A stretch of DNA of 55,180 bases from a virus: positions 1 to 55,180 of IMG/VR virus record IMGVR_UViG_3300020189_001839. One strand, 5' to 3'. The position numbers were made by a program, and so were the translations under genes. The notes under the pieces were generated by a model, which was not told the DNA's origin, did no database searches, and saw only the letters and a program-made list of their open reading frames with translations. Positions 5,775 through 48,541 of the stretch are shown here, piece after piece; the first letter of the stretch is position 1; each line of letters starts with the position of its first letter.

Positions 5775-6020
5775 ATGAAAAAGTTCTCAGATTTAACCAA
5801 GATTAATGAAATGAAATACGGCCAACCAATGTATGGTGAGGACGATTTGAAACAACATATGAAGGACCTTTTGGTAGCTGCTTCAGGAAACGATCAAAGA
5901 GTTTTAAATGACATCGTTGATTGTTTGACTGATGATCAGATGAAGAAGTGCTACGATAAGCTTATCAATGATTACAACTATACCGGTAAAAAAGGTGAGG
6001 TTGTAAAGCCTTCTATGTAA
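5775..6020 (+). CDS. Small protein with N-terminal capsid-targeting-like tag
   Basis: An 81-residue protein whose first residues, MKKFSDLTKINE, fit the recurring tag of this genome: an aromatic-hydrophobic pattern ending in I-N-E, like a gp21 prohead-protease site (I/L-x-E). The rest is acidic and helical with no known domain. In T4-like phages, small acidic proteins with such sites are prohead core or internal head proteins, so a scaffold-core or packaged protein is plausible. It follows the tail-tube-like gene, has its own late-type box, and is followed by a terminator. Confidence 0.6.
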   Translation: MKKFSDLTKINEMKYGQPMYGEDDLKQHMKDLLVAASGNDQRVLNDIVDCLTDDQMKKCYDKLINDYNYTGKKGEVVKPSM

Positions 6021-6064
6021 TAGATCTTTAAGTACGCCCCTTCTCAGATGTTTATCCGAGGACC

Positions 6065-6093
6065 AAAGCCCTTCCAATGTGGAGGGCTTTTTT
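6065..6093 (+). terminator. Intrinsic terminator after the tagged small protein
   Basis: An inverted repeat, AAAGCCCTTCC then GGAGGGCTTT with one bulged base, flanks a short AATGT loop and runs into a T-tract. It separates the virion block from the resolvase and RuBisCO-like cassette. Confidence 0.8.
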
Positions 6094-6098
6094 GTGTC

Positions 6099-6107
6099 GA
6101 TATATAA
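6099..6107 (+). promoter_or_regulatory. Late-promoter-like box GATATATAA
   Basis: The box directly follows the terminator and lies 24 bases before the TTG start of the RuvC-like gene. It is placed to drive that gene and the overlapping cassette behind it. It has the same sequence as boxes before several virion-type genes. Confidence 0.5.
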
Positions 6108-6131
6108 GTTGCACTTTTAAATAATTTCATT

Positions 6132-7524: not shown

Positions 7525-7847
7525 TGGAAGTATTTAAGATTGATAATATGCAAGGAGGTTGGTACGCAGGTAATTTCTCTCCTGTTGCTTTTCCTACAAG
7601 TGATTTTGAGGTTTGCTACAAGAAGCATATCCAAGGTGAAGATTGGCCTAAGCATTATCACAAGGAGGCGGATGAAATAAATTTCCTGAGAAGTGGTAAA
7701 ATGATTATACAAGGAACTGAATTAGTAGCAGGCGACATATTCATACTTAGGAAAGGTGAAGTTGCGGACCCAGTTTTTCTTGAAGATTGCGAGGTCTTTA
7801 TAGTAAAAACTCCATCAGTACCAGGAGATAAATTTATTGTAAAATGA
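7524..7847 (+). CDS. Cupin-fold protein
   Basis: A 107-residue single-domain beta barrel. The HYHKEADEINFLRSGKM stretch matches cupin motif 1 (two His, one Glu, Gly turn), and GDIFILRKGEVAD fits the second half. Small cupins in sugar operons bind metals and act as isomerases, epimerases or sensors. The ATG at 7524 overlaps the upstream stop, and the end overlaps the RuBisCO-like gene by ATGA (7844-7847). An in-frame TTG three bases upstream is a less likely start. The substrate is unknown, but the context links it to the same pathway as the flanking nucleotidyltransferase and RuBisCO-like protein. Confidence 0.75.
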   Translation: MEVFKIDNMQGGWYAGNFSPVAFPTSDFEVCYKKHIQGEDWPKHYHKEADEINFLRSGKMIIQGTELVAGDIFILRKGEVADPVFLEDCEVFIVKTPSVPGDKFIVK

Positions 7848-9079: not shown

Positions 9080-9080
9080 G

Positions 9081-10308: not shown

Positions 10309-10347
10309 AGATTAAATAAAGGATTTAAAAAAATAATTAAGAGAATC

Positions 10348-11304: not shown

Positions 11305-11318
11305 ATCTACCTTGAATT

Positions 11319-11359
11319 GGGGGCTGGCAATTAGAATTGCTGCCCCCTTTTCTTTTTTT
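11319..11359 (+). terminator. Strong intrinsic terminator after gp32-like gene
   Basis: GGGGGC pairs with GCCCCC, and the inner GGCAATT pairs with AATTGC around a short loop. The stem is followed by a long T-rich tract, so most gp32 transcripts probably stop here. Confidence 0.9.
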
Positions 11360-14672: not shown

Positions 14673-14681
14673 GATATATAG
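14673..14681 (+). promoter_or_regulatory. Late-promoter-like box GATATATAG
   Basis: The box lies 17 bases before the ATG at 14699 but only five before an ATG at 14687. The usual spacing in this window is about 18-20 bases, so it favours 14699 as the start of the next gene. Confidence 0.5.
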
Positions 14682-14698
14682 GATAAATGAGGAAAAAT

Positions 14699-15190
14699 AT
14701 GCAGAACCTTAAAAATTTCGGACAATTTCTTTCTGAAAGCAGGGGAGATAAGATTTATCCCGGAGCCAGTGACAGAATCAAAGAAATCAGAAGGAGGATA
14801 GAAGCTGAAACCGGCGAGGAAAAGCTATATCAAATGGCTTATGATGAAGGCGGAGCTTTACAGAGGCTTGTGAAGGGAGCTGTTGAGGGAATACAAAAAG
14901 TCGGAAAGGGGATAGCAGATTTATTCGATTCTGGAAAAGCAGCAAGTATGGATGCTGATGGTTTGGAAAAAAACAAAGAACAGGTTCTTTCTAGATGGGG
15001 AGATTCAATTAGGGCTTCTGGTAAAAACAAGGAAAAAAATTACGAAGAATTCTATAGAAATGCCATTCTAAAAGGCAGATCGACCTTCGGGAAGAAGTTT
15101 GATATTAGAAATCCAGAGGGCAGAGATCAGAAGCTTTACCAAGACTATGTTTACTCCGCTTCAAATTATTTTGATGTAGATGGCAAATAA
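14699..15190 (+). CDS. Tagged helical protein, putative internal head protein
   Basis: A 163-residue protein starting MQNLKNFGQFLSE, the recurring tag ending in L-S-E, followed by Ser (a gp21-like cleavage context). The body is Lys/Glu/Gly-rich and helical, with an amphipathic stretch (VKGAVEGIQKVGKGIADLF) and no known domain. ATG 14699 is chosen over 14687 because it matches the tag length of other genes and the late-box spacing. The stop overlaps the next tagged gene by 11 bases. It is likely a packaged internal protein or scaffold component. Nothing points to an enzyme. Confidence 0.6.
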   Translation: MQNLKNFGQFLSESRGDKIYPGASDRIKEIRRRIEAETGEEKLYQMAYDEGGALQRLVKGAVEGIQKVGKGIADLFDSGKAASMDADGLEKNKEQVLSRWGDSIRASGKNKEKNYEEFYRNAILKGRSTFGKKFDIRNPEGRDQKLYQDYVYSASNYFDVDGK

Positions 15191-16094
15191 CTTATTAAAA
15201 TTTGGAGATTTCGTATCACTTTTTGAAGGTGGTGCTGCAATTAAGGAGTCAAGGAGGATTAAGGAGTCCGAGGTACCGAAAACTTTAGAATCTATTGAGA
15301 AAATTCTTTTCCCACTTTTGGGTGGCGGGAAGGTAGATAAGGAATACCTTATAATCGGTAGTATAGGAAAGAAAAAAAGTCAAAATGATACCTCTGGTGA
15401 TATAGATCTTGGAATTGATAAAGCATTCCTTTCAAAAAGCTTGGGTGTTTCTGAAGATGATGTATTAGGGTCCCTTTATAAAATTCTTTCTGAAACTCTA
15501 CAGGATAAACTCGGTTTTGTGCCAGACCTTAAACTAATGAGGGGAATAAACGTCATTTCGATTGGATGGCCAATAGAGGGTGATGCTTCTAATGGGATAG
15601 TTCAGTTGGATCTTATTCCAATTTCGGATATGGATTGGGCTAAATTCATATTCTATTCCCCCGATTATAGAAAGGGAGAAAGTAAGTATAAGTCAGCCCA
15701 CAGAAATTGGTTGTTCCAAGCAATACTCTCCGCGTTAAAAGAGGTAATATCCAAGGACGAAAATAATGAGATAGAAGACTTTTACTCCTACGCCTTAAGG
15801 TTAAGCGATGGTATTTATAAGAATAAGAAATCATTTAAAGGTGCTACAAAGAGGCTAAAAAGTCCAAAGACAGTTAAGGGAGAAACATCCTTTATTACTA
15901 GGGATCCGGATGAATTTGTTGAGATGATGTTCGGGAGTGGTGTAAACAAGGATGATTTGAAATCGTTCGAAGACGCTTGGAAAATAGTTTCGTCTCCTTC
16001 TTTTGTACACGCTGATAAAAAGCAAGAAATTAGGGATGACTTAGAAAGATACCTTGTTAATGGTGGATTTGAAATTCCTACAGAGATTAAATAA
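15180..16094 (+). CDS. Tagged polymerase-beta-like nucleotidyltransferase
   Basis: A 304-residue protein. The N-terminal tag MANNLLKFGDFVSLFE is followed by GG, a close match to a gp21-type L-x-E|G site. Next comes a nucleotidyltransferase core: IIGSIGKKK (helix-turn GS motif), SGDIDLGID (D-x-D metal pair) and QLDLIP (third acidic strand). Such enzymes add nucleotides or AMP to RNA, proteins or small molecules. A helical C-terminal domain follows. It overlaps the preceding tagged gene and is close to the ligase-NMNAT fusion, so an RNA or nucleotide modification role is plausible. The substrate is unknown. Confidence 0.7.
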   Translation: MANNLLKFGDFVSLFEGGAAIKESRRIKESEVPKTLESIEKILFPLLGGGKVDKEYLIIGSIGKKKSQNDTSGDIDLGIDKAFLSKSLGVSEDDVLGSLYKILSETLQDKLGFVPDLKLMRGINVISIGWPIEGDASNGIVQLDLIPISDMDWAKFIFYSPDYRKGESKYKSAHRNWLFQAILSALKEVISKDENNEIEDFYSYALRLSDGIYKNKKSFKGATKRLKSPKTVKGETSFITRDPDEFVEMMFGSGVNKDDLKSFEDAWKIVSSPSFVHADKKQEIRDDLERYLVNGGFEIPTEIK

Positions 16095-16549: not shown

Positions 16550-18466
16550 ATGGCAGGAATCAATCATTTATACGACATTTATAACAAGAAAGGGTCTGAC
16601 TTTGTTGGTCAGCTTTTCAATCAGTTCGTAACAATAAACGAGAAGATGGACGGGTCTGCTTTCTCTTTTGAGAGAGACAAGGAAACCGGAAACTTTAAGT
16701 TTTATAGAAGAGATCAAAGGAACCCAATTACATTGGTTGATAGGACTTTGATGAAGTACTATGAAAAACCAATTCAATATGTAGAGTCTTTGCCACCCCA
16801 CATACTTGAAAAGGTTCCGAGAGGGTGGAGATTTGGATTAGAGTATTTTGCTAACAACAAGCCTGTTGAGATTGTTTATGATAGACTTCCTAAGAATAAT
16901 CTTATTCTTTCTTATATCCACAAAATGGGTGATGACGGTAAGATTATTAGTACTATCCAAGATAAGGAGGAGCTAGATAACTGGGCAGATCTTCTGGGTG
17001 TTGAAAAACCACCTATTGTATTTCAAGGGGTATTAAGTGAGGACCAAAAATCCGAGCTTTTGGATTTTTTGAATACTCCATTTAAAGAGCTTGTTGAAAG
17101 ATTTAAAACACAATCCTTTGTTAGGTTTATCATAAAGACTCTTAACCCAGACCTAAAGAAAACTGCTCTGAATGATGATCTTGATAAAGATGTAGAGGGT
17201 ATAGTTTTCAGATTTGGTGATCTTGAGGGTGATAGCGATACTGTCCTTGCAAAAATGGTCGACCCTATCTTTACTGAGATTGCAAAACAAAAGTTTGCTG
17301 ATAGGAAGAGTAAAAAGCCTTCAGACTTTCTTGGTATAACTGTGATGGACGTTATGAACTTCATTTTAGAAAAAGGATTATCTGAGTTTGAAGTTAACGG
17401 AGATTCAGAGGATGAGAGATATATTTCGTTTATGAGCGATGTATTTGTGAAATTCCTTGATGAATATGCAGAGAAATATAGAGGAACTGATTTTGACGAA
17501 CCTGAATATCTAAAGAGAGACGAGTTCAGACTAAATCGTGATAAGATTAAGGACAGGAGGGTTCTTAAATACATTGAGAAAGACGATTCGTTTGAATCTT
17601 TATTCAAGTTGATACTTAACTCTTTTAGAAAAATCAAGACAAGAGCTGGCGGTATTATAACTTCTGGTATGAAGGATCAAATTAATTTGCTGATCAAGGA
17701 CATTAAGGATTACATTAAGCGTCCTGCTAAAAATGTGAACGAATCAAAGTTCATAAGCTTTGGTGACTTTAGAAGGGAAATGTCTCCATCTGTAGATTAT
17801 ATTCAGGAGGAGGATGAAGAATTTGAAACTTCTGATGATCCACTAGTTTCTTACCAAGAATTTATCTCCAAATTAGAGACAATTGATAATGAGGAAATTC
17901 CAGAGGAAGTAGATATACTGCAAGAAGATGTCTCTGACGAAAGAAAGCCGGTTAATGTTATTATGGGTAGATTCCAGCCTTTCCATCATGGGCATCTGAA
18001 AATGGCTAAAGCCCTTAAGGAAAAGAACGATCTACCTTCTTATGTAGTTGTGGTTTATCCAGGCCACAATAAGTCAGGAAAATCCCCATTTGACAACGAT
18101 TCCATAAAAATGTATATGGATTCCATCGTATCAAACAACGAGGAGATAGAGGGATATATGATGGTAAACAGGGGTCTTTTAGGATCTGCTATATCAAAGC
18201 TAATCGATATGGGATATGACCCAAGGCTAATTGGTGCTGGTCCAGACAGAAAAGATGACTATACCAAGCAGATTGACTATATCAAGATGTCTGATATAAA
18301 AGACAAGATTAGCGACGAGCTAGAAATTGTGGAAACACCAAGGGTAACAAGTGGTACTGATGTAAGACAAGCCATTAAAGACCAAGACTTTTCAAAGTTT
18401 AAAAAGATGGTTCCACAAGAGGTATCAAATCTCTACAACGACCTTATTACGAAGGTACGGGACTGA
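16550..18466 (+). CDS. Fusion of RNA-ligase-like nucleotidyltransferase and NMN-adenylyltransferase-like domain
   Basis: A 638-residue two-domain protein. Residues 1-240 carry covalent nucleotidyltransferase motifs of RNA/DNA ligases: K32-M-D-G (motif I), FGLEYF (E98), VEGIVFRF (E216) and AKMVDP (K235). Residues 465-638 are a HxGH nucleotidyltransferase: GRFQPFHHGH (479-482) and TSGTDVRQAI, typical of NMN adenylyltransferases that make NAD. The linker contains a tag-like sequence (ESKFISFGDFRREM, about 398-411) seen elsewhere at N-termini, so the protein may be cleaved between domains. It suggests ligation plus NAD synthesis, as in phage RNA repair or NAD-recovery systems. Domain identities are firm; the joint role is inference. 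Confidence 0.85.
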   Translation: MAGINHLYDIYNKKGSDFVGQLFNQFVTINEKMDGSAFSFERDKETGNFKFYRRDQRNPITLVDRTLMKYYEKPIQYVESLPPHILEKVPRGWRFGLEYFANNKPVEIVYDRLPKNNLILSYIHKMGDDGKIISTIQDKEELDNWADLLGVEKPPIVFQGVLSEDQKSELLDFLNTPFKELVERFKTQSFVRFIIKTLNPDLKKTALNDDLDKDVEGIVFRFGDLEGDSDTVLAKMVDPIFTEIAKQKFADRKSKKPSDFLGITVMDVMNFILEKGLSEFEVNGDSEDERYISFMSDVFVKFLDEYAEKYRGTDFDEPEYLKRDEFRLNRDKIKDRRVLKYIEKDDSFESLFKLILNSFRKIKTRAGGIITSGMKDQINLLIKDIKDYIKRPAKNVNESKFISFGDFRREMSPSVDYIQEEDEEFETSDDPLVSYQEFISKLETIDNEEIPEEVDILQEDVSDERKPVNVIMGRFQPFHHGHLKMAKALKEKNDLPSYVVVVYPGHNKSGKSPFDNDSIKMYMDSIVSNNEEIEGYMMVNRGLLGSAISKLIDMGYDPRLIGAGPDRKDDYTKQIDYIKMSDIKDKISDELEIVETPRVTSGTDVRQAIKDQDFSKFKKMVPQEVSNLYNDLITKVRD

Positions 18467-18473
18467 TATATAA
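18465..18473 (+). promoter_or_regulatory. Late-promoter-like box GATATATAA
   Basis: The box overlaps the end of the ligase-NMNAT fusion gene (its TGA is at 18464-18466) and lies 18 bases before the GTG start of the next tagged gene. Confidence 0.5.
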
Positions 18474-18491: not shown

Positions 18492-19031
18492 GTGGAAAAA
18501 AGAATACAGAATTTCTCAGACTTTTTAAAATCCAATCCGGTTAATGAGGGTGACGGGTTTGGTACTTTCCCATTTCTCCTGATAAAAGATGGTGATATCT
18601 ACAATTACCTATTTCAGCTTGAATTGGAAAATGGAGCTCAAAAAGGATTTATGTTGGTAGTTGGTAAGTATTCCAAATATGAATCTATGGAGGGTCCAAA
18701 AAACTCTTATGCAGTCCTAAACATAAACGAGATTGCTCCTGAGATCATAGAAGATATAGCTATAAAGAAGTCGGAGGTCCCAGATTTAAATGACCAAAAG
18801 TTTACCCTGAGGGATAATGATCTCAGTAGATTTTTGGAGCAAATATCTAAGGCCCTTTTAAATTATCTCGAGAAGAATTCTAAAGTAATTCGTATATTTG
18901 ACGAAATGCAAGATAATATCGAGATTGAAAACTATGAGGAAATGCTAAAATCCGTTTTACTTTCATTCCTCGGACCTGAATGGTCAATGCAAGAGGGATC
19001 TCATAAAGGGACTTTCATCATCAGTAGATAA
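18492..19031 (+). CDS. Tagged protein of unknown function (GTG start)
   Basis: A 179-residue protein with the N-terminal tag MEKRIQNFSDFLKSNPVNE followed by Gly, a possible gp21-type site (V-N-E|G). The body alternates strands and helices (FPFLLIKDGDIYNYLFQLE) with no motif I recognise. The start codon is GTG, chosen because it preserves the tag and sits 18 bases after a late-type box. The next gene, a histone-like protein, has its own TATAAATA box. It is probably packaged or head-associated, inferred only from the tag and promoter. Confidence 0.6.
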   Translation: MEKRIQNFSDFLKSNPVNEGDGFGTFPFLLIKDGDIYNYLFQLELENGAQKGFMLVVGKYSKYESMEGPKNSYAVLNINEIAPEIIEDIAIKKSEVPDLNDQKFTLRDNDLSRFLEQISKALLNYLEKNSKVIRIFDEMQDNIEIENYEEMLKSVLLSFLGPEWSMQEGSHKGTFIISR

Positions 19032-21061: not shown

Positions 21062-21553
21062 ATGGATTCAATGTATTATCCAACTGGAAATTCAACAAAA
21101 GGTAGAACCTTGGTTTGCATGTGTTGTGAAACTGGTGTACCTATCATGGAGGAACAAGAAACCCCTGATGCTATCGAGGTAAAAATCAAGGAGTGGCTGG
21201 ACGAAAACGACTACTGTGTTGAGAAATGGCAAATGGATGAAAAAATGAAAAGCTGCGGCTGCGAAGGATATGATCTCCAAGAGATGGATGGTGGTGCCCC
21301 TGCAGGAGATATGGGAGGAGGAGCATTTGCAACTCTGGGAACTACTCAAGGTATGGGTAACGTTACAGCACCTGCAGCAGGCGGTACTAATGCCGACTTT
21401 TACGATGGTGCAGTTGGATCTGGCGACAAATTCCCATCTTTAACTGTTGGGACCCAAGCAGCTAGAAAGGGTAATAAGAAGAAAAAGAAGAAGGAAAGAC
21501 TCGTAAAAACATTTGACGATTTCAAAGCAATGATGAAGTCTTTGCAGAAATAA
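21062..21553 (+). CDS. Cys-containing, Gly-rich protein with basic C-terminus
   Basis: A 163-residue protein in three parts. A Cys-rich N-terminal half (CMCCETG, CGCEGY) could bind zinc. A Gly/Ala-rich middle contains a GMGNVTAP segment of the kind I recall from T4-like virion-associated proteins. A very basic tail, KKKKKKERLV, is followed by KTFDDFKAMMKSLQK. The last part echoes the aromatic tag pattern but at the C-terminus. It ends a run of small genes and is followed by a strong terminator. The function is not recognised; a head-associated protein is possible. Confidence 0.5.
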   Translation: MDSMYYPTGNSTKGRTLVCMCCETGVPIMEEQETPDAIEVKIKEWLDENDYCVEKWQMDEKMKSCGCEGYDLQEMDGGAPAGDMGGGAFATLGTTQGMGNVTAPAAGGTNADFYDGAVGSGDKFPSLTVGTQAARKGNKKKKKKERLVKTFDDFKAMMKSLQK

Positions 21554-22300: not shown

Positions 22301-22689
22301 TGGAGAGGCTTATACAGGAAGATTATCTAGACAGCCCTTGGAAAATGTCTGTTTCCTGTATTCTATTAAACCAGACTACTAATCAGCAAGTAAGAGCAAT
22401 CCTACCTAATGTGTTTTCCAAAATAAAATCCCCGGAGTTTTGCTCATCAATGGATCCTTCAGAGATCTATCCGATCATTAGATCCACAGGGTTTGGTAAC
22501 ATAAAATCCAAAAGAATAATAGCTATGAGTCAAAAGTGGGTAGAGGGGTTTGAAAAAGTCGAAGATCTTCCGGGGATTGGAAAATATGGAAAGGAATCTT
22601 GGGACATATTTGTGGATGGAAAAACTAACTTCACCCCATCGGATAAAAAATTAAGAATGTATTTAGAAGGATTGGATAATTCTAACTAA
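22300..22689 (+). CDS. HhH-GPD DNA glycosylase (MBD4/EndoIII-like)
   Basis: A 129-residue base-excision repair enzyme. WKMSVSCILLNQTTNQQV matches the N-terminal helices of the EndoIII superfamily. The helix-hairpin-helix with Gly-rich turn is DLPGIGKYGKESWDIF (about 89-104), and the catalytic aspartate is D115 in FTPSDKKL. It lacks the lysine of bifunctional EndoIII and the 4Fe-4S cluster, and it is compact, like the catalytic domain of MBD4. It probably removes damaged or mismatched (T/U opposite G) bases. Its last 27 bases overlap the convergent amidase gene. Confidence 0.8.
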   Translation: MERLIQEDYLDSPWKMSVSCILLNQTTNQQVRAILPNVFSKIKSPEFCSSMDPSEIYPIIRSTGFGNIKSKRIIAMSQKWVEGFEKVEDLPGIGKYGKESWDIFVDGKTNFTPSDKKLRMYLEGLDNSN

Positions 22690-23378: not shown

Positions 23379-23699
23379 CTATTCGGAGGTTTTAGCGTTA
23401 GCTGAAAGCTCCTCGTGAATTCTTTTTTTAACATACTTAATCACCTCTTTTGGAGCTTCCCCTCTTTTAACCATTTCGTTGAATTCATCCTCTTCCGCCA
23501 GGGTGTCTAGGTAGTTGTAAAGATCTGTACTTTGGAACATAGCATCCACTACTTGTGGGGTTTGTGTATATGCTGGTCTGTAGTTTCTAGAATTAACATT
23601 ATCCTTGTACCATTCGCCAGGTACAACCACACTTCCAGGGGCTGCGGAAATGTAATATTCATTAAGGAAATTCTCGAAACTTTTGACTCTGCCTTCCAT
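23379..23699 (-). CDS. Tagged small protein in the amidase operon
   Basis: A 106-residue protein starting MEGRVKSFENFLNE followed by Tyr, a clear copy of the capsid-targeting-like tag. The middle is Pro/Tyr/Asn-rich, and the C-terminal half is a charged helix (EDEFNEMVKRGEAPKEVIKY). A minus-strand GATATATAC box lies nine bases upstream. The amidase gene follows 20 bases downstream, so this gene leads a late minus-strand operon. It is probably a head-internal protein that might be processed. No enzymatic motif is seen. Confidence 0.65.
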   Translation of the reverse strand: MEGRVKSFENFLNEYYISAAPGSVVVPGEWYKDNVNSRNYRPAYTQTPQVVDAMFQSTDLYNYLDTLAEEDEFNEMVKRGEAPKEVIKYVKKRIHEELSANAKTSE

Positions 23700-23708: not shown

Positions 23709-23717
23709 GTATATATC
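23709..23717 (-). promoter_or_regulatory. Minus-strand late-promoter-like box GATATATAC
   Basis: The box reads GATATATAC on the minus strand and lies nine bases before the ATG of the tagged gene at 23699. It shows that the box-tag pairing also holds on the other strand. Confidence 0.5.
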
Positions 23718-29255: not shown

Positions 29256-29909
29256 ATGGAAAGAGTTGAAAGCTTCGAAAATTTTATAAACGAAAGGGAA
29301 ATACCAGATAAGCAAGGGGAAATCCTTGTGATTCTGGGTCCACCTGGATCGGGCAAAGGAACCATATCTAAAAGACTTGTTGACCGCAATGATTTTAGCC
29401 ACATTTCTACTGGAGCCCTTATCAGGAATTCTGATGACAAAGAACTTAAGAAAATAGTAGAGGGAGGAGATTTCATACCCGATCGCATAATGGCTAGGAT
29501 GTTAAGAAAAGCATTAAGTAATGTTGACTTAGAAAAGGGTATTGTTATAGACGGGTTTCCAAGAAATTTAAAACAAGCTAAGCTTCTTGATTCTCTTTTG
29601 GGAAAAATGGGATTGGGTTTAAATCATGTTATTTACTTGGACGTTGACGAGTCTAAGTCAAAGGAGAGGATCATAAAAAGATCCAAGGATAGCGGCAGAA
29701 AAGACGACCAGGACGAAGAGATCATTTCCAAAAGGTTTATGGACTATAGGAAAAAAACGCTTCCTTTGGTAAAGAAATACAAGAAAAGCAGAAAGCTCGT
29801 TGAAGTAAACGCATCTAAGAAAATTGAAACCGTATATAAGCAGTTAGTAAAAAAAGTTGGTTTGCCTTATAAGCCTAAAGATGGAGGAAAGAAAGAAAAA
29901 GCTTCCTGA
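29256..29909 (+). CDS. adk: Tagged adenylate-kinase-like nucleoside monophosphate kinase
   Basis: A 217-residue enzyme with N-terminal tag MERVESFENFINE, then an adenylate kinase core. The P-loop is GPPGSGKGT, the AMP-site segment is SHISTGALIR (family T-G), IDGFPRN is the conserved Asp-Gly-Phe-Pro-Arg, and a reduced lid is followed by KRFMDYRKKT. The ATG at 29256 is chosen over a TTG at 29226. No late-type box is seen immediately upstream, unlike at most tagged genes, so it may be read from the nrd transcript. It balances adenine nucleotides and may be packaged. The end overlaps the next gene by 29 bases. Confidence 0.85.
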   Translation: MERVESFENFINEREIPDKQGEILVILGPPGSGKGTISKRLVDRNDFSHISTGALIRNSDDKELKKIVEGGDFIPDRIMARMLRKALSNVDLEKGIVIDGFPRNLKQAKLLDSLLGKMGLGLNHVIYLDVDESKSKERIIKRSKDSGRKDDQDEEIISKRFMDYRKKTLPLVKKYKKSRKLVEVNASKKIETVYKQLVKKVGLPYKPKDGGKKEKAS

Positions 29910-32402: not shown

Positions 32403-32411
32403 GATATATAA
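32403..32411 (+). promoter_or_regulatory. GATATATAA box immediately before a tagged gene
   Basis: The box ends three bases before the ATG at 32415. If it is a promoter, the transcript would be nearly leaderless, unlike the usual 18-20 base spacing. Confidence 0.35.
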
Positions 32412-32414: not shown

Positions 32415-32972
32415 ATGAAATTAAGAAGCTTTACATCATTCACATCTGAAAATATTAGCGAATCCCTAAGGTATCATATAGAAGAGGGCCTTTCCCTAAT
32501 GGAGAGTGTTTATAGAATAGAATCTGATTCTTGGCTGGATTTAATAAATGAATCTAGAAACCTTTGGATTAATGAGCAGATAGATCTTGACCTTGATGAC
32601 ATTTTCCTTATTAGTACAGAAGCTGGACAAAAAGCTAAATATCGGGGAGAAGAAGTTTTACTTGACGTCCCGTTCGAAATTAACGAGGAAAAATACCAAG
32701 GTAGAAAGGTAAAAATCAACAAGCCTTTTAGAACTCCTGGTGAGACAAGGAAGTTTGCTGTTTATACAAAAAACGGCGAGGGTAAGGTTGTCAAGGTTAG
32801 GTTTGGACAACCAGGCCAAAGAATAAAGAACGATGATCCAAAGGCTTCTAAATCGTTTAGAGCAAGACACAGATGTACAGATCCTGGACCTAAATGGAAA
32901 CCGAGATACTGGTCTTGCAATGTCCACAGATACCACAAACTCCTGGGTCTTAAATCCAATAATCCGTGGTAA
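32415..32972 (+). CDS. Tagged protein with DUF5872-like C-terminal domain
   Basis: A 185-residue protein. The N-terminus MKLRSFTSFTSENISE fits the tag pattern (aromatics then I-S-E), and more L/I-x-E sites follow within 60 residues. The C-terminal 75 residues have the DUF5872-type pattern: RKFAVYTKNGEGKVVKVRFG, then KSFRARHRCTDPGPKWK and YWSC, with conserved Cys, His and basic residues. This domain is frequent near head and prohead-protease genes of T4-like phages, but its function is unknown. The stop overlaps the next gene. Confidence 0.6.
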   Translation: MKLRSFTSFTSENISESLRYHIEEGLSLMESVYRIESDSWLDLINESRNLWINEQIDLDLDDIFLISTEAGQKAKYRGEEVLLDVPFEINEEKYQGRKVKINKPFRTPGETRKFAVYTKNGEGKVVKVRFGQPGQRIKNDDPKASKSFRARHRCTDPGPKWKPRYWSCNVHRYHKLLGLKSNNPW

Positions 32973-33247
32973 ATCCATATTCTGAAGCTCGCTTAGGTAA
33001 GAACCAATTCCTAAGGGTTTTTAGACACGATGTACCCGACGATGAGCTGAAATGGCATCAAGATTGGGAGGATCGTAATGTTGAATTCCTAAATGAAAAT
33101 GACTGGAAAATCCAGATAGACAATGAACTTCCTCAAAGGTGTCATGGGACGTTTTTTATAAAGGCTAAGGTGTGGCATCGTTTGATAAAAGGAACAAATA
33201 ATTTGGAGGTAAAGATTACTAAACATCCGGAATCAGGCGATATATAA
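32966..33247 (+). CDS. Small conserved phage protein (WH..D..DR and WHRLIKG motifs)
   Basis: A 93-residue protein with GTG start overlapping the upstream stop by seven bases. It has the pattern KWHQDWEDRNVEF, WKIQIDNELP and WHRLIKGTNNLEVKI, which resembles a small cupin-like family that I recall from T4-like cyanophages and marine phages. The spaced His residues could bind metal. Its last three codons form the GATATATAA box of the next gene. Function is not established. Confidence 0.55.
   Translation: MVNPYSEARLGKNQFLRVFRHDVPDDELKWHQDWEDRNVEFLNENDWKIQIDNELPQRCHGTFFIKAKVWHRLIKGTNNLEVKITKHPESGDI
33239..33247 (+). promoter_or_regulatory. Late-promoter-like box GATATATAA embedded in a stop codon region
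   Basis: The box doubles as the last codons (GAT ATA TAA) of the upstream gene and lies 18 bases before the ATG at 33266, the same arrangement as at 41231. Confidence 0.5.
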
Positions 33248-33265
33248 AGAAACAAATTTTTGGAA

Positions 33266-33796
33266 ATGAACAATCTAAAATTATATGAAGAATTTAGCAA
33301 ATCCCTATATGAGGGGGTAACACCAGTTTACGACGAGTCTAAATTCAGAAAGAATGTGAATGTAAGACCAGAGAAGGAGCTTAAATATTCTGAAGTTATT
33401 CCACAATTGAGGGATATGTTAGCACAAAAGGATGCTGGCCAGGTTGAAAGCATTACTGTCATTGCGGAAGTTCCAACACAAGGTAAAGGAGCTCCTGATT
33501 ATGTTAAAGATATCATAGCTAAGGAAAGGGAAAGACTTGCCAGACAGTATAAATCAACCATAGGAAAGGAGATCGAAAAGGATACTGATGCTGATGAGTT
33601 TGATTTCGACCTAAATAGATTTGGTGATAAAAGAACGATATTCTTTGATTCAGAGTTTCTTGTAGACCGTGTTGAAAACATTGAAGGAAAGGATTATGTT
33701 ATTGGAATCCCAGTTTCCTTGAAGGACAAAGGCTATGAAGCTAAAATTCTCCCAATTAAGGTAGAAGAAATTTATTACGAGCCGGCAGGCGAATAA
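33266..33796 (+). CDS. Tagged protein of unknown function
   Basis: A 176-residue protein starting MNNLKLYEEFSKSLYE followed by Gly-Val, which fits an L-x-E|G prohead-protease site. The body is charged with mixed strands (SITVIAEVPTQG, KRTIFFDSEFLV, EAKILPIKVEEIYY) and a helical middle (VKDIIAKERERLARQYKS). No known domain is visible. ATG 33266 is chosen over an upstream TTG on spacing from the late box. A strong terminator follows, so it ends this transcript. A packaged protein is inferred from the tag. Confidence 0.6.
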   Translation: MNNLKLYEEFSKSLYEGVTPVYDESKFRKNVNVRPEKELKYSEVIPQLRDMLAQKDAGQVESITVIAEVPTQGKGAPDYVKDIIAKERERLARQYKSTIGKEIEKDTDADEFDFDLNRFGDKRTIFFDSEFLVDRVENIEGKDYVIGIPVSLKDKGYEAKILPIKVEEIYYEPAGE

Positions 33797-38663: not shown

Positions 38664-39806
38664 ATGGGAAAGAATTTAAAGGGATTTGAAGAATTTATAA
38701 ACGAAAGGGAAGATTCCATTTACGAGAGCTCATCCCTTTTAGGTAGGACTGCAGGAGTAACTAGAAACAAACTGATGGATATCTTAAAAGATCCTGAATC
38801 TCATGTTTCTATAACAACCAATAAACCTGCTTCCAATACTGCACCGCCTACACAAGAGCCGGTAGATTTTGATTCTTTCATGGATCCTAAAAAAATGACG
38901 GGCCTTGATTTACTTATGGCAACTAAGGTTGGATCATCCCTTGAACAATGGTTGCTGAACTCCAGTAACCTTGGAACCCCAACTGATGCACCAGCACCAC
39001 ATAATGAACTAATAAATGTTTTAAACAAGAATCCTAATGTCCGGAGAGAAGTCGAGGAAGTTGGTGATGCAATAAGAGCGGCAGAGGATGACGTTAATGC
39101 GGTGCTTGAGCCTGATGCATCTTTATTACCTAGAAGCTCTTCATATAAATTTAGAAATAAGAACAAGATTACTTGGGATTCCCTTAAATCAGCTCTTGAG
39201 AGCCAAAATTATTGGAGAGAGATGGACAAGAGCAAATACAACTTGGTTGCTCTAAGAAACTACCTTTCGGAGAAGAAAAAATCAGGAAATCACTTCATTG
39301 ACCTTATTATATTAATGTCTCCAGAGGACGAAAAGAAGGTGTGGACATACGAGGCAACTACTGTTCCTGGGCCTATGTTTATGGTAAGGCCTTTTAGAAA
39401 CTGGTACCTTTCAACAGGTCTAAAAGATACCATTAACCCCAAAGGGCTTGCTATTGTTCAACCCGGAGTATATGACTATAAAATAGGTACTCATAGAGGT
39501 TATAGTGCCTTTGTACAGGACGGTAAAGTAAACGTTGATAGATATGTACCTGTTGCTAATCCCAAAGATGCAACTTTCAAAACATTCTCCCCTGGTAATT
39601 CACAAAGTGGTAAATTCAGCATAAACATTCACAGAGCCAGATCTAGAGGAACTTCTAAAAATGTAAATACTTGGTCTGCTGGATGTTTGGTTTTTGCCAA
39701 AGCATCGGATCTGAATAGGGTTCTTGGTAAGCTAAAATCAGCAAGACAAAGAAAAATAGATGTTGCCCTTATCCAAATGGATGATGTTGGATCAAAGCTT
39801 TCTTAA
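38664..39806 (+). CDS. Tagged protein with L,D-transpeptidase-like C-terminal domain
   Basis: A 380-residue protein. Its tag MGKNLKGFEEFINE is followed by an acidic, Pro/Ser-rich middle (about 50-170) and a C-terminal domain. That domain contains GLAIVQPGVYDYKIGTHRG, INIHRARSRG (H323) and WSAGCLVF (C341), the His...SxGC arrangement of YkuD-type L,D-transpeptidases and related peptidoglycan-modifying enzymes. It could be a virion-packaged wall-modifying enzyme acting at entry, or an endolysin accessory. A TATAAATA box is directly upstream. The catalytic assignment is by motif only. Confidence 0.65.
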   Translation: MGKNLKGFEEFINEREDSIYESSSLLGRTAGVTRNKLMDILKDPESHVSITTNKPASNTAPPTQEPVDFDSFMDPKKMTGLDLLMATKVGSSLEQWLLNSSNLGTPTDAPAPHNELINVLNKNPNVRREVEEVGDAIRAAEDDVNAVLEPDASLLPRSSSYKFRNKNKITWDSLKSALESQNYWREMDKSKYNLVALRNYLSEKKKSGNHFIDLIILMSPEDEKKVWTYEATTVPGPMFMVRPFRNWYLSTGLKDTINPKGLAIVQPGVYDYKIGTHRGYSAFVQDGKVNVDRYVPVANPKDATFKTFSPGNSQSGKFSINIHRARSRGTSKNVNTWSAGCLVFAKASDLNRVLGKLKSARQRKIDVALIQMDDVGSKLS

Positions 39807-39856: not shown

Positions 39857-41239
39857 TTGGTGGCTGTTAGTACATTATCGATCGCGGATCAAATAAATCA
39901 AAAGTACAGAGATTATGCTCTGTATGTTTTGCAATCAAGGGGAATTCCTAATTTCTATGATTCCTTAACCCCAGTACAGAGAATAATTATAGAGAATAGT
40001 CCAAACTCATTTAATAAAACCATTGGGCTTGTGGGTGAGGTGATTAGAACCGGACTATATCACCATGGGGATTCTTCCCTTGCTGGTGCTATTTCAAAAC
40101 TTGCTAGACCTTTTGGGTGTTCGTTTGAAATACTTGAGGGAGATGGATTTTTTGGATCCCCAGTTAATCCTAACCCGTCAGCCCCAAGATATACTGCTGT
40201 TAAAATAAACAGAAATGTCAAGGACATTGTTGAGAAACATAAGGACCTAAACGAAAAAAATGAGGAGGGTGGACACGACTGGCTCCATCTAGAAATTCCG
40301 GTTGGGTTGCTTACACATATAGTTGGTATTGCTGTTGGATATAGAAGCAATATTCTGCCAAGAAAGATGGAAGATATTGTGGAATATCTGGAAGGTAAAA
40401 ACAAACTTCTGAAACCATACTTTAAGGACTTCAGTGGAAAAATATATAAACTTGATTCAGACGATTCTTGGATACTTGAGAGTGGTTTTGAAGTCAATGA
40501 AAGAAAAAAGACCATAAGGATATTTGATCTGCCTCCTATTATGAGGTATGACTCTTTCATGAAGAAGCTTCTATTCAAGCTCGATTATTACGGGTATGAA
40601 TACTACATGCAGAACAATTCTCAGAGTAAATGTGATGTTGGTATTTCTTTAAAGAAAGTATCGCCAGCAGAATTTAAACAAGCTGTTGAGGTTATCAAGA
40701 AGCAAACAAAAATAGTAGTAAGGGAAAACGTTGTGTTTATCAAAGATGGAGCTGTTGCTCAGTTTGATTCTGTCAAATCATATTTAGATTCTTTCCGGGT
40801 CCATTTAGAGAATGTGAGGCTGAAAAGACTTATGAAGGATGAGGTTGATCTGAATATGGATCTCGATTTTTTGGAGGCTAAGCTAAAGTTCTTGATATTC
40901 ATGAGCCAAAAGAAGAGACAGAATAGTGAAATTGTCGAATTTCTCAACAAGTTTGTAAAGTGGATATCACAAAAGCTTTCCCAGATTCAAATAGTAAAGC
41001 TATCATCAGACCATATTAAAGAGACCGAGGATTTAATCAAAGGGATCAAATCCAAGATCAGAGAGACCAAAAAAGCTATCACTAAACAAAGGGCTGTGGT
41101 TAAGAAGATTACTGGAGAACTCAAGAAAACTAAACCAGCATCTCTTATACCTAAAGCCGTAGCCGCCAAGAGCATTTCTGTTGATCCAGAGATAGAGGTG
41201 TTTGATCTTGAGGAAGGCGAGGATTCTGAGGATATATAA
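39857..41239 (+). CDS. 52: Type II DNA topoisomerase medium subunit (gp52-like)
   Basis: A 460-residue DNA breakage-reunion subunit, equivalent to GyrA/ParC. The N-terminal region has the DYALYVLQSRGIPNFYDSL and LTPVQR segments. The active-site tyrosine is Y112 in SAPRYTAVKI, preceded by the EGDGFFGSP turn. A coiled-coil C-gate segment spans about residues 330-430. It starts with TTG or GTG (39857 or 39860), as no ATG is available. It pairs with the large subunit at 33892; the two genes are separated by UvdE, DnaJ and a tagged gene. Its last codons are the next gene's late box. Confidence 0.92.
   Translation: MVAVSTLSIADQINQKYRDYALYVLQSRGIPNFYDSLTPVQRIIIENSPNSFNKTIGLVGEVIRTGLYHHGDSSLAGAISKLARPFGCSFEILEGDGFFGSPVNPNPSAPRYTAVKINRNVKDIVEKHKDLNEKNEEGGHDWLHLEIPVGLLTHIVGIAVGYRSNILPRKMEDIVEYLEGKNKLLKPYFKDFSGKIYKLDSDDSWILESGFEVNERKKTIRIFDLPPIMRYDSFMKKLLFKLDYYGYEYYMQNNSQSKCDVGISLKKVSPAEFKQAVEVIKKQTKIVVRENVVFIKDGAVAQFDSVKSYLDSFRVHLENVRLKRLMKDEVDLNMDLDFLEAKLKFLIFMSQKKRQNSEIVEFLNKFVKWISQKLSQIQIVKLSSDHIKETEDLIKGIKSKIRETKKAITKQRAVVKKITGELKKTKPASLIPKAVAAKSISVDPEIEVFDLEEGEDSEDI
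41231..41239 (+). promoter_or_regulatory. Late-promoter-like box GATATATAA at the end of gp52
   Basis: The box forms the last three codons of the topoisomerase gene and lies 16 bases before the ATG at 41256. Confidence 0.5.
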
Positions 41240-41255: not shown

Positions 41256-42233
41256 ATGGATAACATACAAAGTTTTTCTAAGAGATACTACCTCTCACTA
41301 AACGAGGATCTGAAAATAAATTGGGGTGGATCCGGTTTACCTCTAGACAAGGAGATCGATATAAACGGTGAATCTATCAAGCCCTATGATGTTGCTACAA
41401 GAGTGGTCGATGCTTGGTTGGAGAATGTAAAAGAAGTTTCCGCCAATAATATTGAGAAGTCTTCTGATAGAGCTATATTTAATGCAGCATTTAATAGAAT
41501 ATCTAAGAAAATTTTCCCAACGCTTATTAGCTATATAATCCCAACTGTAGAATTTGACGGTAAGGATATTATAGAAAATAAGAAATCAAATGCAGGATCT
41601 TTTTGGAAGGAAGCTTGGCCTCAGGTATGGCAAGAGTTCAGTGCTATTGAGAGAGGTTTAATAGAGAAGTTCACAATTCTAGGGAAGGATACTACTTATG
41701 ATGAGATTATGAAAGGTCTTGGTGAAACTCTTTCCGATGGAAGTCCATATGCATCTTATAAAAGTGAAATTGCTAACCAAATGAGATTATTCTACGATAT
41801 GTTAGGTAAGACTTTTTCTGAAATGTTTAATAATGAGAAAGTAAATCTTAGCAACGATCTTATAATTGAAATCGCAAACGATCTGAACTCAAAAATTAAG
41901 GGATCTAAGATAGACTTTGGTGTAGCAAGAAAAGAGGAAGTTGAAGGCAAGATCGACGACGTTGAAACTAAGGATCTTCCAGCACAATCAAAGAAAGAAT
42001 TCGACACGATTGTAAAGAATATAGAGGATTTTTCTAAAAAGGCTTTTGATGCTACTGCAGCTAAAGAATCTCCAAAGGAAGAATCTGGTGATAAAGGAAA
42101 GGAAAGCTCGTCTACTAATAGCTATGCATCAATACCAACTGATGTTCAATCTGTGAGAAAATGGGCAGAAACACTCAATCCTGTAGATAAGAGAGTTATT
42201 ATCGACACTATTAGATCTACCGGTATGCAATAG
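41256..42233 (+). CDS. Tagged helical protein, putative head-internal protein
   Basis: A 325-residue protein. Its N-terminus MDNIQSFSKRYYLSLNE is a variant of the tag, ending in L-N-E. The long, mostly helical body (WKEAWPQVWQEFSAIERGLIE) is followed by an acidic, Ser/Lys-rich linker (about 240-285) and a short C-terminal helix. No enzyme motif is visible. A late box precedes it and a terminator follows, so it forms a separate late transcript. By size and tag it is similar to T4 internal head proteins, but no homology is claimed. Confidence 0.6.
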   Translation: MDNIQSFSKRYYLSLNEDLKINWGGSGLPLDKEIDINGESIKPYDVATRVVDAWLENVKEVSANNIEKSSDRAIFNAAFNRISKKIFPTLISYIIPTVEFDGKDIIENKKSNAGSFWKEAWPQVWQEFSAIERGLIEKFTILGKDTTYDEIMKGLGETLSDGSPYASYKSEIANQMRLFYDMLGKTFSEMFNNEKVNLSNDLIIEIANDLNSKIKGSKIDFGVARKEEVEGKIDDVETKDLPAQSKKEFDTIVKNIEDFSKKAFDATAAKESPKEESGDKGKESSSTNSYASIPTDVQSVRKWAETLNPVDKRVIIDTIRSTGMQ

Positions 42234-43102: not shown

Positions 43103-43106
43103 TAGC

Positions 43107-45074: not shown

Positions 45075-45085
45075 ATAAACGAGTA

Positions 45086-45928: not shown

Positions 45929-45930
45929 TA

Positions 45931-47043
45931 ATGAATGATACTTATGACTATATCGTAGTTGGCTCCGGTCTTTTTGGTAGTGTATTTGCACAACAACTTA
46001 CAGAGTCCGGTAAGAGTTGCCTTATCCTCGAGAGGAGGAATCATAGCGGTGGAAATTGCTATACCGAAAATGTGCATGGTATAGAGGTTCATAAATATGG
46101 ACCCCATATATTCCACACATCTGATGATGGCATTTGGAACTATGTAAACAGATTTGCTAAGTTTAATAATTATGTGAATAGACCCAAAGTTAAGTACGGG
46201 GAAAAAATATTTTCATTCCCGATTAACCTCATGACATTATATCAGCTTTTTGGTGTTAATACTCCCGAAGAGGCAAAGAAAAAATTAGACGAGGTTAGGA
46301 TAAAAATTAAGAAACCCTCAAACCTCGAAGAGTGGGTTCTTAATGAGGTTGGAGAAGAGATTTACGAAAAGTTTGTAAGGGGATACACTACTAAGCAATG
46401 GGGAAGAGACCCTAAAGAATTGCCTTCTTTCATCATAAGGAGACTACCGATAAGGTTAACATACGACGATAATTATTATTTCGATAAGTACCAAGGAATA
46501 CCTATTGGTGGTTACACCAAAATGATAGAGAATATCCAAGGTGATGTCCCGGTAAAGTTTAATGTTGATTTCTTAGAGGACAGAAAATATTGGGAATCTC
46601 AAGCCAAAAAAATAGTTTTCACCGGTCCTATCGACGAATTCTTTGATTATTCAGAGGGTATCTTAGAATATCGAAGTCTAGACTTCAATTCACAAATTTT
46701 AGATATTGAAGACTTTCAGGGAAATGCTTTAATAAACTACACTGAAGCCGATATACCTTGGACAAGGATATGTGAACACAAGCATTTTGATTGGGTAAAA
46801 TCAGATAAGACAGTCATTACCAAAGAGTTTCCCTCCGAGTGGAAATTAGGCAAAGAGAGGTTTTATCCAGTATCTGACGAAAAGAATAAAAACATTTATT
46901 CAGCCTACAAGAAATTGGCTGAACAAATTTCTGATAAGTATATATTTGGTGGAAGATTAGCTGAGTACAAATATTACGATATGCACCACGTAATCGGAAG
47001 TGCTCTTGCCAGATCCAAGAGGGAAATAAGCGTCACCAAGTAG
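45931..47043 (+). CDS. glf: UDP-galactopyranose mutase
   Basis: A 370-residue FAD enzyme that converts UDP-galactopyranose to UDP-galactofuranose. The Rossmann start is IVVGSGLFGSVFAQQL, with the ILERRNHSGGNCYTE FAD-binding segment. HKYGPHIFHTSDDGIWNYVN is the active-site histidine region, and YTTKQWGRDPKELP and IPIGGYTKM are typical Glf motifs. A late GGRLAEYKYYDMHHVIG segment completes the FAD site. It is paired with a GT8-like gene. Galactofuranose is absent from many animal glycans but common in bacterial surfaces, so the product is likely used on virions or to alter host glycans. Confidence 0.95.
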   Translation: MNDTYDYIVVGSGLFGSVFAQQLTESGKSCLILERRNHSGGNCYTENVHGIEVHKYGPHIFHTSDDGIWNYVNRFAKFNNYVNRPKVKYGEKIFSFPINLMTLYQLFGVNTPEEAKKKLDEVRIKIKKPSNLEEWVLNEVGEEIYEKFVRGYTTKQWGRDPKELPSFIIRRLPIRLTYDDNYYFDKYQGIPIGGYTKMIENIQGDVPVKFNVDFLEDRKYWESQAKKIVFTGPIDEFFDYSEGILEYRSLDFNSQILDIEDFQGNALINYTEADIPWTRICEHKHFDWVKSDKTVITKEFPSEWKLGKERFYPVSDEKNKNIYSAYKKLAEQISDKYIFGGRLAEYKYYDMHHVIGSALARSKREISVTK

Positions 47044-47052
47044 GATATATAC
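47044..47052 (+). promoter_or_regulatory. Late-promoter-like box GATATATAC
   Basis: The box directly follows the glf stop and lies 19 bases before the ATG of the tagged RimK-like gene. Confidence 0.5.
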
Positions 47053-47071
47053 ATCAAAGTAAATTTTACAC

Positions 47072-48541
47072 ATGCAAAGGATTTCCCCTGCACTTAATTT
47101 TCAATCTTTTCTAAATGAAGCCGAGAATAACGAATCCGTAGATATTCTTATGCTTAGTGGGGAATCAAAACCCAGCAAAACTGCTAAGTCTTTCGCAGAG
47201 GAGTGTGAGAAAAGAGGTTTAACATTTAATGTTGTTAACGTCAATAATGTGGTACTAGAGAAGGTCTATAATGGACACGTGGTTAAGTACACTGACGGAG
47301 AAGAGGCTAAAGAGATCTTAATAAGACCAGAGACTACAGCTATTGTTCCAAGGGGAGGAGTCACTACTAACTCCTACACAAAGCAAATTATGAGAGATCT
47401 TGAAGCATCTAGATATTTCTGTGTTAATTCTTTGGAATCTATAGAAATATGTGAAAGTAAATACCTCACATCAAAAGTCCTTGATGAGGAAGGGCTTCCA
47501 ACACCAAAATATGCTTTAGTTAATAGCACAAAGGGATTGGATAGAGCTCTTGAAGAAGTTGGGGGAGAATTTCCGGTAGTGATGAAGCTGTTGTCTGGTT
47601 CACAAGGTATTGGAGTTTCAATTGTAGACTCTTATGCATCTCTTAAGTCAGTCTACCAAACAATTCAAAAACTTGATCCTGATGGTGAAATACTTTTGCA
47701 GGAAAAGATCGATTCTGATTTCGATGTAAGGATTCAGGTAATAGTTAAAAAATTCGATCCTTTAAACCCGGGTGTAGAAAACTGCACAGTCCTAGGAGCA
47801 ATGAAAAGGCAAGCAGTAGAGAAAGACTTTAGGACTAATTATACCTTAGGTGGAGAGGTTTCAGCTTATGAAACTAATGAGGAGATTGAAAAAATAGCTT
47901 GTGAAGCAGCAAACAGTGTATCTTGTAACTGGTGTGGCGTTGATATTATGATTGACTCTAAAACTGGCAAGCCATTTATACTTGAGGTAAATTCATCACC
48001 AGGAACGGAAGGAATATCTGAAGCTATCGGAAAACCGATCGTAGGAGATGTCTTGGATTATATTGTAGACAAGAAGAATTGGTCTCAGACTAAGTTGGAG
48101 GTAGGATATCTTGAAACTTTAGAAATTCCATCCATCGGAAAAATGGTAGCTAAATTTGATACAGGAAACGGTTCCACAGCATCTTCTATCCATGCTGATG
48201 AAATTGAAGAAAATGGAGACACTCTCAAATTCAAGATTGGTGAAAATGAGATTGAAGGAAAAATTGTTGGCAGAACCAAAACTGAAATAGGTAGGGATAC
48301 AGACGAAAGACCCATTATAGAAATGGATATAGTTTTCAATGGCGTCAAGATTCCTAAAGTAAAAGTTGCACCAACAGACAGGATATCTAAAAGCACCCCG
48401 TTTTTAGCCAACCGGCCATTAATGAAAAAGCTTGGTGTTATGGTTAACCCTCACAAAGCTTTCGTGGTTTCTGACCAAGTTGATGGCTATTCACCAATGC
48501 AAGCAAAAGGAGATCCATATGGTGGAATAGAATTTATGTAA
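47072..48541 (+). CDS. Tagged RimK-like ATP-grasp ligase fused to RimB-like aspartyl protease domain
   Basis: A 489-residue fusion. The tag is MQRISPALNFQSFLNE followed by Ala (L-N-E|A). An ATP-grasp ligase follows with FPVVMKLLSGSQGIGVSIV (ATP loop), ILLQEKIDSDFDVRIQV, CNWCGVDIMIDSKTGKPF, and ILEVNSSPG (metal site), as in RimK enzymes that add glutamates to ribosomal protein S6. After about residue 340 a second domain has MVAKFDTGNGSTASSIHADE and GRDTDERPIIEMDI, the D-T-G and R-P-I pattern of RimB-type retropepsin-like proteins encoded beside rimK in bacteria. Packaging would deliver a ribosome-modifying enzyme at infection; that is a hypothesis. The fused domains are clear. Confidence 0.8.
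   Translation: MQRISPALNFQSFLNEAENNESVDILMLSGESKPSKTAKSFAEECEKRGLTFNVVNVNNVVLEKVYNGHVVKYTDGEEAKEILIRPETTAIVPRGGVTTNSYTKQIMRDLEASRYFCVNSLESIEICESKYLTSKVLDEEGLPTPKYALVNSTKGLDRALEEVGGEFPVVMKLLSGSQGIGVSIVDSYASLKSVYQTIQKLDPDGEILLQEKIDSDFDVRIQVIVKKFDPLNPGVENCTVLGAMKRQAVEKDFRTNYTLGGEVSAYETNEEIEKIACEAANSVSCNWCGVDIMIDSKTGKPFILEVNSSPGTEGISEAIGKPIVGDVLDYIVDKKNWSQTKLEVGYLETLEIPSIGKMVAKFDTGNGSTASSIHADEIEENGDTLKFKIGENEIEGKIVGRTKTEIGRDTDERPIIEMDIVFNGVKIPKVKVAPTDRISKSTPFLANRPLMKKLGVMVNPHKAFVVSDQVDGYSPMQAKGDPYGGIEFM

Follow-up and report, generated by a model that had tools for sequence, protein, structure and literature searches.

A recurring N-terminal peptide resembling T4-type capsid targeting sequences on unrelated proteins, enzymes included, of an IMG/VR virus and its relatives

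The stretch analysed here (the window) is the whole of IMG/VR virus record IMGVR_UViG_3300020189_001839, 55,180 bases, and is probably a fragment of a larger virus genome. Its PHROG matches include tail tube, single-stranded DNA-binding protein, DNA helicase and topoisomerase II, and a Dda-type helicase was found by tblastn. Otherwise unrelated proteins in this window begin with a short peptide of 12-19 residues (the tag), which a preliminary description had listed at eleven sites and read as a capsid-targeting propeptide with a prohead-protease site. All eleven peptides translate where they had been placed (Table 1). The common form proposed for them, F-x-x-F-[IL]-x-E, held strictly for five of the eleven. 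The other six depart from it: the peptides at 5775, 32415 and 41256 have no clean FxxF[IL]xE, and those at 15180, 18492 and 33266 have a longer gap preceding the E, the length of which varies among orthologs.

With genes called by a longest open reading frame (ORF) rule, the strict motif F..F[ILV].E was found five times in the first 20 residues of the 71 window coding sequences and once in the remaining 16,104 residues; from that single copy elsewhere, 0.09 N-terminal matches would be expected. We then compared related records, among them G001 (90,913 bases), which has the window's proteins at 100% identity wherever compared and is counted as a copy of the window, as G005 is of G006; G003 to G006 are mutually close. 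Within 22 residues of the start, the form [FY]..F[ILVM].E occurred 1-17 times per record across 13 records, where internal matches predicted 0.07-1.7; reversed, the motif matched a single N-terminus in all 13 combined. Distinct tags of G001, G002 and G006-G012, 57 in all, were the basis of a 12-column tag profile, which needs four residues ahead of the first aromatic. Its threshold was reached by 4-13% of N-termini and by 0-0.4% of internal windows in the 13 records, some of which are the training records.

Three held-out records gave the same picture. The profile matched 11 of 282 N-termini in G017 (1.0 expected from internal windows), 21 of 350 in G014 (1.1 expected) and 27 of 309 in G018 (2.4 expected), so that 4-9% of the genes in each passed. 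Pooled, this is 59 of 941, against an average of 3.6 for 100 column-permuted profiles, which reached 18 at most. In LR756500 (462 kb), 21 of the 435 genes of the first 340 kb matched against 1.4 expected, in a dialect such as MKYIKEYEEFILE. None of 14 hand-picked replication, chaperone and tail genes of the window, the names of which are partly our own labels, scored as tagged. The tag is thus concentrated at N-termini in related phages as well, and the internal windows and permuted profiles argue against the possibility, raised beforehand, that random genes show the pattern equally often.

Alignment of orthologs showed that two elements are conserved separately, an aromatic pair [FY]xx[FY] and a cut-like site [ILV]xE, and that the spacing between them drifts. 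Families are named here by the position of the window gene. Among 91 ortholog rows in ten families (excluded were G001, G005, the minus-strand family 23699 and matches with less than 40% query coverage), the E stands in its column in 77, I, L, V or M stands two residues before it in 75, and the aromatic pair, counted within 16 residues before the site and with L permitted at its second position, is present in 82. In nine of the ten families the E stays at a constant distance from the protein body, while the position of the aromatic pair shifts. F8 and E16 are invariant in six aligned sequences of family 15180, with GG.AIK next, and F11 and E19 in six of family 18492, where the residue following is G, A, S or N and then DGFGT. 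In the adenylate kinase family F10 and E13 are invariant among 8 aligned sequences of variable spacing, and the tags FENFINE, FESFVNKDDINE and FENFISINE all precede REIPDKQG. The residue after the E is G, A or S in family 33260 wherever the site is clear, and G002, G003, G006 and G009 have FxxFLNE tags on proteins similar to 23379-23699. Key-residue codons are mixed in 81 strict tags (second F, TTT 63 and TTC 18; E, GAA 57 and GAG 24), and therefore it is the protein level that is conserved. Orthologs of window 49152-49472 have an FxxF-like beginning, mostly without the cut E.

The tagged set was said to include enzymes, and Pfam matches bear this out for an adenylate kinase and a RimK-type ligase. 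Solved kinases, among the 60 matches listed, align with the phage adenylate kinase from residue 17-25 onward, and the tag is therefore an addition to the kinase. Orthologs of the RimK-type ligase have E with I, L, V or M two before it in 11 of 11 rows and FxxF in 10; a Zn-protease match (3.6e-4) was below its cut-off, and a search for RimK in six named relatives gave none. A PHROG search with ten tagged window proteins gave three useful matches (RimK-like, endolysin-like and one unknown family). Solved structures gave no useful match in profile searches with families 15180, 38664 and 33260, and a nucleotidyltransferase at 15180-16094 would be only a guess. F11 is invariant in 6 aligned sequences of family 38664. 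The AlphaFold model of this protein has a mean pLDDT (predicted local distance difference test) of 59.7, and its top Foldseek matches, Csd6 (E 0.008) and an L,D-transpeptidase (E 0.02), with none at 0.001, are a hint and not an assignment.

At E 0.01, Pfam families matched seven of 20 tagged or tag-like proteins of the relatives, namely two RNase_T exonucleases, an AAA ATPase, one protein each of CHAP, SLT and GDPD type, and a Tlde1/YkuD-like protein scoring slightly under its cut-off. The G017 relative of the 41256 protein has PG_binding_1 at its end. G017 also has an endolysin-like family with both a tagged copy (154850) and an untagged paralogue (227692, 200 amino acids); perhaps one of the two acts in lysis from inside the cell while the other is carried in the head. 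A tag-like start was also seen on an expanded paralogue family (MKHIQSFSLFEA.., with repeats such as NNQLTSLEGAP), located in G007 at about 76-95 kb and 112-114 kb, in G010 at 0-10 kb and in G008 at 116-132 kb, of which one member is without a Pfam match.

Table 1. Positions of tags, C-terminal aromatic pairs and upstream boxes in the window
Feature	Gene or protein	Position	Strand	Observation
Tag MKKFSDLTKINE (loose form)	81-aa protein 5775-6020	5775..5810	+	INE/LNE in 8/8 ortholog rows
Tag MQNLKNFGQFLSE	Protein 14687-15190	14699..14737	+	Strict motif; E in column in 8/9 ortholog rows
Tag MANNLLKFGDFVSLFE, then GGAAIK	Protein 15180-16094	15180..15227	+	10/10 ortholog rows
Tag ..NFSDFLKSNPVNE, then GDGFGT	Protein 18492-19031 (GTG start)	18492..18548	+	9/9 ortholog rows
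Tag MEGRVKSFENFLNE	Protein 23379-23699	23658..23699	-	Strict motif
Tag MERVESFENFINE	Adenylate kinase 29256-29909	29256..29294	+	ADK Pfam 2e-35, residues 26-178
Tag MKLRSFTSFTSENISE	Protein 32415-32972	32415..32462	+	E in 8/8 ortholog rows; I/L/V/M two before in 7
Tag MNNLKLYEEFSKSLYE	Protein 33260-33796	33266..33313	+	E kept in 9/10 ortholog rows
Tag MGKNLKGFEEFINE	Endolysin-like protein 38664-39806	38664..38705	+	PHROG endolysin 6.8e-7
Loose tag MDNIQSFSKRYYLSLNE	Protein 41256-42233	41256..41306	+	E in 3/4 ortholog rows
Tag MQRISPALNFQSFLNE	RimK-type ligase 47072-48541	47072..47119	+	RimK Pfam 1e-31
C-terminal aromatic pair ..LVKTFDDFKAMMKSLQK, no cut site	Protein 21062-21553	21062..21553	+	Ending kept in relatives
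C-terminal aromatic pair ..GRVMRFEDFVNNRD, no cut site	Acidic protein 48763-49092	48763..49092	-	Ending kept in relatives
GATATATA box	Gene 5775	5746..5753	+	
GATATATA box	Gene 14687	14673..14680	+	
GATATATA box	Gene 18492	18465..18472	+	
GATATATA box	Gene 23699(-)	23710..23717	-	
GATATATA box	Gene 32415	32403..32410	+	12 nt before ATG
GATATATA box	Gene 33260	33239..33246	+	
GATATATA box	Gene 41256	41231..41238	+	
GATATATA box	Gene 47072	47044..47051	+	

Two further window proteins, 21062 and 48763(-), are outside the list of eleven and have conserved copies of the aromatic pair at the C-terminus. The ending of 48763(-) is the same in five of five other matches (G001, G003, G004, G005 and G006, of which G001 and G005 are copies). 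The small protein at 21062-21553 combines a copy of the mature start of the relatives' major capsid protein (MCP), a basic stretch and the C-terminal FxxF; its MCP-like segment is 48% identical over 64 amino acids to residues 45-108 of the G011 MCP (E 6e-7), which are the start of the mature-type region. Because it has both this segment and the C-terminal pair, it may bridge shell and scaffold. C-terminal pairs without a cut site would fit separate docking and cutting roles, although general enrichment of the motif at C-termini is not strong (1-3 matches per record against 0.4-1.6 expected in five of nine records).

A search for a gp21-like protease, advised in the preliminary description, was negative in the window and its near copies and positive in tag-bearing relatives. 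The S77 family (PF03420) had no match in the window or in G001, and among 12 related records, which are fragments, it matched in G011 (434 kb) and G012 (62 kb), both with tagged genes, and in none of the other 10. The G011 protease matches the PHROG head maturation protease (1e-39), and in both records MCP and portal genes lie in the same region. In these relatives one protein joins the protease to tandem repeats of 14 residues, such as NLDKGISYSEYLAE, and G011, G014 and G017, which have orthologous tagged genes, carry the protease-repeat scaffold fusion and the MCP on the same contig (G014 and G017 were found via the protease). In a search for related loci, the best 80 of 566 were kept, giving 75 protease ORFs, of which 59 have a length of 500 amino acids or more. 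All 59 had at least four copies of [FYHW]xx[FYH][ILVM]xE, with a mean of 9.3 (shuffled 0.16, maximum 3), and the spacing was exactly 14 in 383 of 490 cases. Among 1132 other ORFs, four reached four copies, and these are the matched positions of four further protease loci. The search was seeded with repeat-bearing proteins, and the 59 are therefore relatives and not independent cases. The downstream MCP candidate had [ILM][NYATQS]E before A, S, G, D or N, at residues 31-75, in 51 of 55 loci. By motif, then, MCP, scaffold and tag appear to have the cut-like site in common, and scaffold and tag also the aromatic pair.

A k-mer test identified an upstream box, GATATATA, within 60 nucleotides (nt) of the start of 51 of 131 tagged genes, compared with 182 of 2206 untagged ones (p 4e-20). 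Eight of the eleven listed window genes have it upstream, against five of 63 other ORFs (p 1.1e-5), and that gene list had been made without knowledge of the box; the tagged genes 15180, 29256 and 38664 are without it. In G011 the box also stands ahead of portal, protease-scaffold, sheath, Hc2 and tail-fibre genes, and so a promoter-like box is common to tagged and virion genes. The distance from box to start codon is bimodal, being exactly 12 nt in 45 genes of the window, G001, G006, G007, G008, G010, G011, G014 and G017. In 181 longer-spaced cases A is found at +12 in 80%, against 45% one base before, within an A-rich stretch. The 12-nt class and the A at +12 therefore fit a start site at +12, and these positions suggest that GATATATA is a promoter, with leaderless messages in the 12-nt class. 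The T4 late promoter TATAAATA was also considered and set aside, with no enrichment upstream of tagged genes (5 of 131 versus 38 of 2206, p 0.09).

These comparisons best support the reading of the peptide as a capsid-targeting propeptide with a prohead-protease site, the evidence being both elements of the T4 capsid targeting sequence (CTS) in the tag and the motif of the relatives' protease-scaffold and MCP. Since the tag holds both elements mapped in the T4 CTS, we consider it probable that it is a T4-type CTS on an expanded set of cargo that includes enzymes. From these observations we infer docking, cleavage, packaging, ejection and a role for each cargo. The aromatic pair [FY]xx[FY] would dock each protein, after its synthesis, into the core scaffold of the prohead under assembly, and the S77 protease would cut after [ILV]xE, freeing the mature protein within the head. 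The same protease would trim the MCP propeptide, and the cargo would exit with the DNA at the next infection.

Several results weigh against this reading. The head module is absent from the window contig and from G001-G006. In family 38664 the [IL]xE motif that elsewhere ends the peptide fails by column: the E stands there in none of 11 rows, eight of which have FxxF with the E displaced or unclear and three of which are untagged paralogues. In a table of 62 rows, the residue after the site is in 16 cases R, D, M or E instead of S, G, A or N; this table was compiled by hand from orthologs with a clear site, and omits G007 for 33260, 38664 and 32415, G008 and G010 for 38664, and the G012 RimK. 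At the positions of F and N in the tag, the scaffold repeats favour Y and A. The G011 scaffold, first of 623 proteins by tag profile, has only three windows over the threshold, while that of G012 is outside the four best listed. No box lies within 60 nt of the G011 MCP gene, and tagged genes are not linked to the box in LR756500 (1 of 20 versus 36 of 415) or G012, nor significantly so in G018 (p 0.13). Phages sharing the MCP family also lack tag enrichment (MaF61, 0 of 189; MA9V-1, 2 of 261 with 1.8 expected; PTm1, 1 of 300).

Perhaps the tag docks onto the scaffold without routine cutting, the tagged proteins being assembly helpers or core-bound, and injection is not needed. The two C-terminal copies with the pair and no cut site speak for this, and so do the sites that precede R, M or Y, some of which may be left uncut. 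We nevertheless regard it as unlikely, given that in nine of ten families the spacing of [ILV]xE from the protein body is constant while the rest of the linker drifts, that the MCP bears a similar motif, and that the cargo includes enzymes without an evident assembly role. The tag might also direct proteins elsewhere, to the envelope or a replication compartment, as could be thought from the several tagged proteins that are peptidoglycan-active (CHAP, SLT, endolysin-like). However, no hydrophobic stretch of the export type is apparent by eye in the tags, there are cytosolic enzymes among the cargo, and the cut motif resembles that of MCP and scaffold, which makes such a destination very improbable.

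An explanation at the nucleic acid level, in which the common 5' region serves translation or transcription (for example leaderless initiation) and the peptide is a by-product, could account for the 45 genes with the box exactly 12 nt before the start codon, and for a tag-like start in 64 of 68 genes with a spacing of up to 15 against 110 of 197 with a longer one. That tag-like pattern is loose, however, and similar patterns match 213 of 389 genes in G007 and 295 of 623 in G011. The mixed synonymous codons, tags beginning at varying distances from the ATG, the tie of the E to the protein body, the C-terminal copies and the three tagged window genes without a box all go against it, and we give it hardly any credence. 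That the motif comes from chance, or from selective reading of a phenylalanine-rich proteome, was suggested by the six listed peptides outside the strict pattern; it is refuted by the held-out genomes and permuted profiles, by the single N-terminal match of the reversed motif in 13 records and by the conservation among orthologs.

We can go beyond the T4-type reading, tentatively, to a picture that we think possible but would not favour. The tag would be a one-copy mimic of the 14-residue scaffold repeat, and a cassette of promoter, start codon and tag would spread between genes and make cargo of their products, so that each phage would pre-load and inject dozens of proteins (including nucleotide, peptidoglycan and ligase enzymes), with the lineage dialects FSEFLNE, YEEFILE and LYESKLNE. 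Some support for the spreading of a cassette comes from tag regions that are 82-97% alike in DNA between genes with unrelated bodies, most clearly in LR756500 (23 of 27 DNA-similar pairs); some of the DNA-similar pairs listed in G010, G011 and G018 are not tag genes. If the tag is a targeting sequence, its signature would allow prediction of the proteins that large uncultured phages carry inside the head, the phage could bring an enzyme toolkit into its host, and the repeat scaffold would be a named candidate for the docking partner.

Concerning the host, the recorded hosts of the phages found with the G011 MCP as query are Prevotella, Tenacibaculum, Chryseobacterium, Flavobacterium and the host of phage PAU, and for this reason a Bacteroidota host is likely for the window phage. 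The bS21-type Bacteroidetes phages described in PMC9723584 were considered as kin and rejected, with an S21 gene in none of 11 records. Two neighbouring regions of the window also gave matches. The single ORF at 16550-18466 has a strong PHROG cytidylyltransferase match, and an RNA ligase match that is weak and below the Pfam cut-off; 22663-23358 on the minus strand matches Amidase_2 (9e-10) and adjoins the tagged gene 23699(-).

Neither the tag nor the repeat scaffold was found described in the literature, which was searched at the level of titles and abstract openings. Among the phages of related MCP, PTm1 (Tenacibaculum) and MA9V-1 (Chryseobacterium) have a protease domain and a long C-terminal region in one ORF with the MCP adjoining, and neither an exact array of 14-residue repeats nor tag enrichment was seen in them. 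The protease-scaffold of MA9V-1 (L107, 9708-13751; 1347 amino acids) and that of MaF61 (L110, 13902-18116; 1404 amino acids) each have many cut-like sites, with no 14-residue array seen. In the giant phage SPN3US, as proposed for the tag, N-terminal propeptides are removed by the protease and were suggested to target the prohead, but the four that are named exceed 100 residues (PMC5694885).

PAU, a Sphingomonas phage the host of which has since been placed in Sphingobacterium (PMC3738902), has an MCP and a protease that are distant homologues of those of G011, its protease and scaffold being annotated as separate genes. Its gp142 and gp154, annotated as internal capsid protein, start with tags ending LNE before AS, and 14 of its genes begin MK.[IL]..LYE, a dialect of its own without FxxF; the tag profile matched four of 290 genes against 1.2 expected. 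This dialect, MK.[IL]..LYE..(KLNE), was seen in the PAU record (L109) on genes annotated as internal capsid protein and scaffolding. N-terminal sequencing of the PAU MCP is reported to account for 520 of 585 residues (PMC5646251), and a cut after its LME (residue 64) leaves 521, within one residue of that result.

T4 was used as a motif comparison only. The first ten residues of its internal protein (IP) IPIII are reported to suffice for packaging, and mutagenesis assigned targeting mainly to residues 4 and 7 and processing to 8 and 10; with position 10 altered, IPIII is reported still to bind but to escape cutting (PMC9026906). In the T4 record these are Y4, F7, I8 and E10, and thus IPIII resembles the tag, with aromatics three apart and then I8xE10 before A; IPI is a long-spacer form, like the window's longer-gap tags, and one candidate site of gp23 reads AFGSFLTE before A. 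The tag profile matches none of the T4 IPs, because it requires four residues before the first aromatic. The T-even IPs are described as having only the leader in common, and T4 has three of them (PMC12373910), whereas the profile picks out the share of genes given above, metabolic enzymes among them, as judged by sequence. In T4, gp21 and gp22 are separate genes, whereas in the relatives described here the protease and repeat scaffold are one protein. The T4 CTS has been used to load proteins into phage heads (PMC9026906, PMC3012670), and the cargo code proposed here could serve likewise. The kind of signal is thus known from T4; its wide range of cargo, the fusion of protease and repeat scaffold, the common box and the C-terminal copies set the present form apart.

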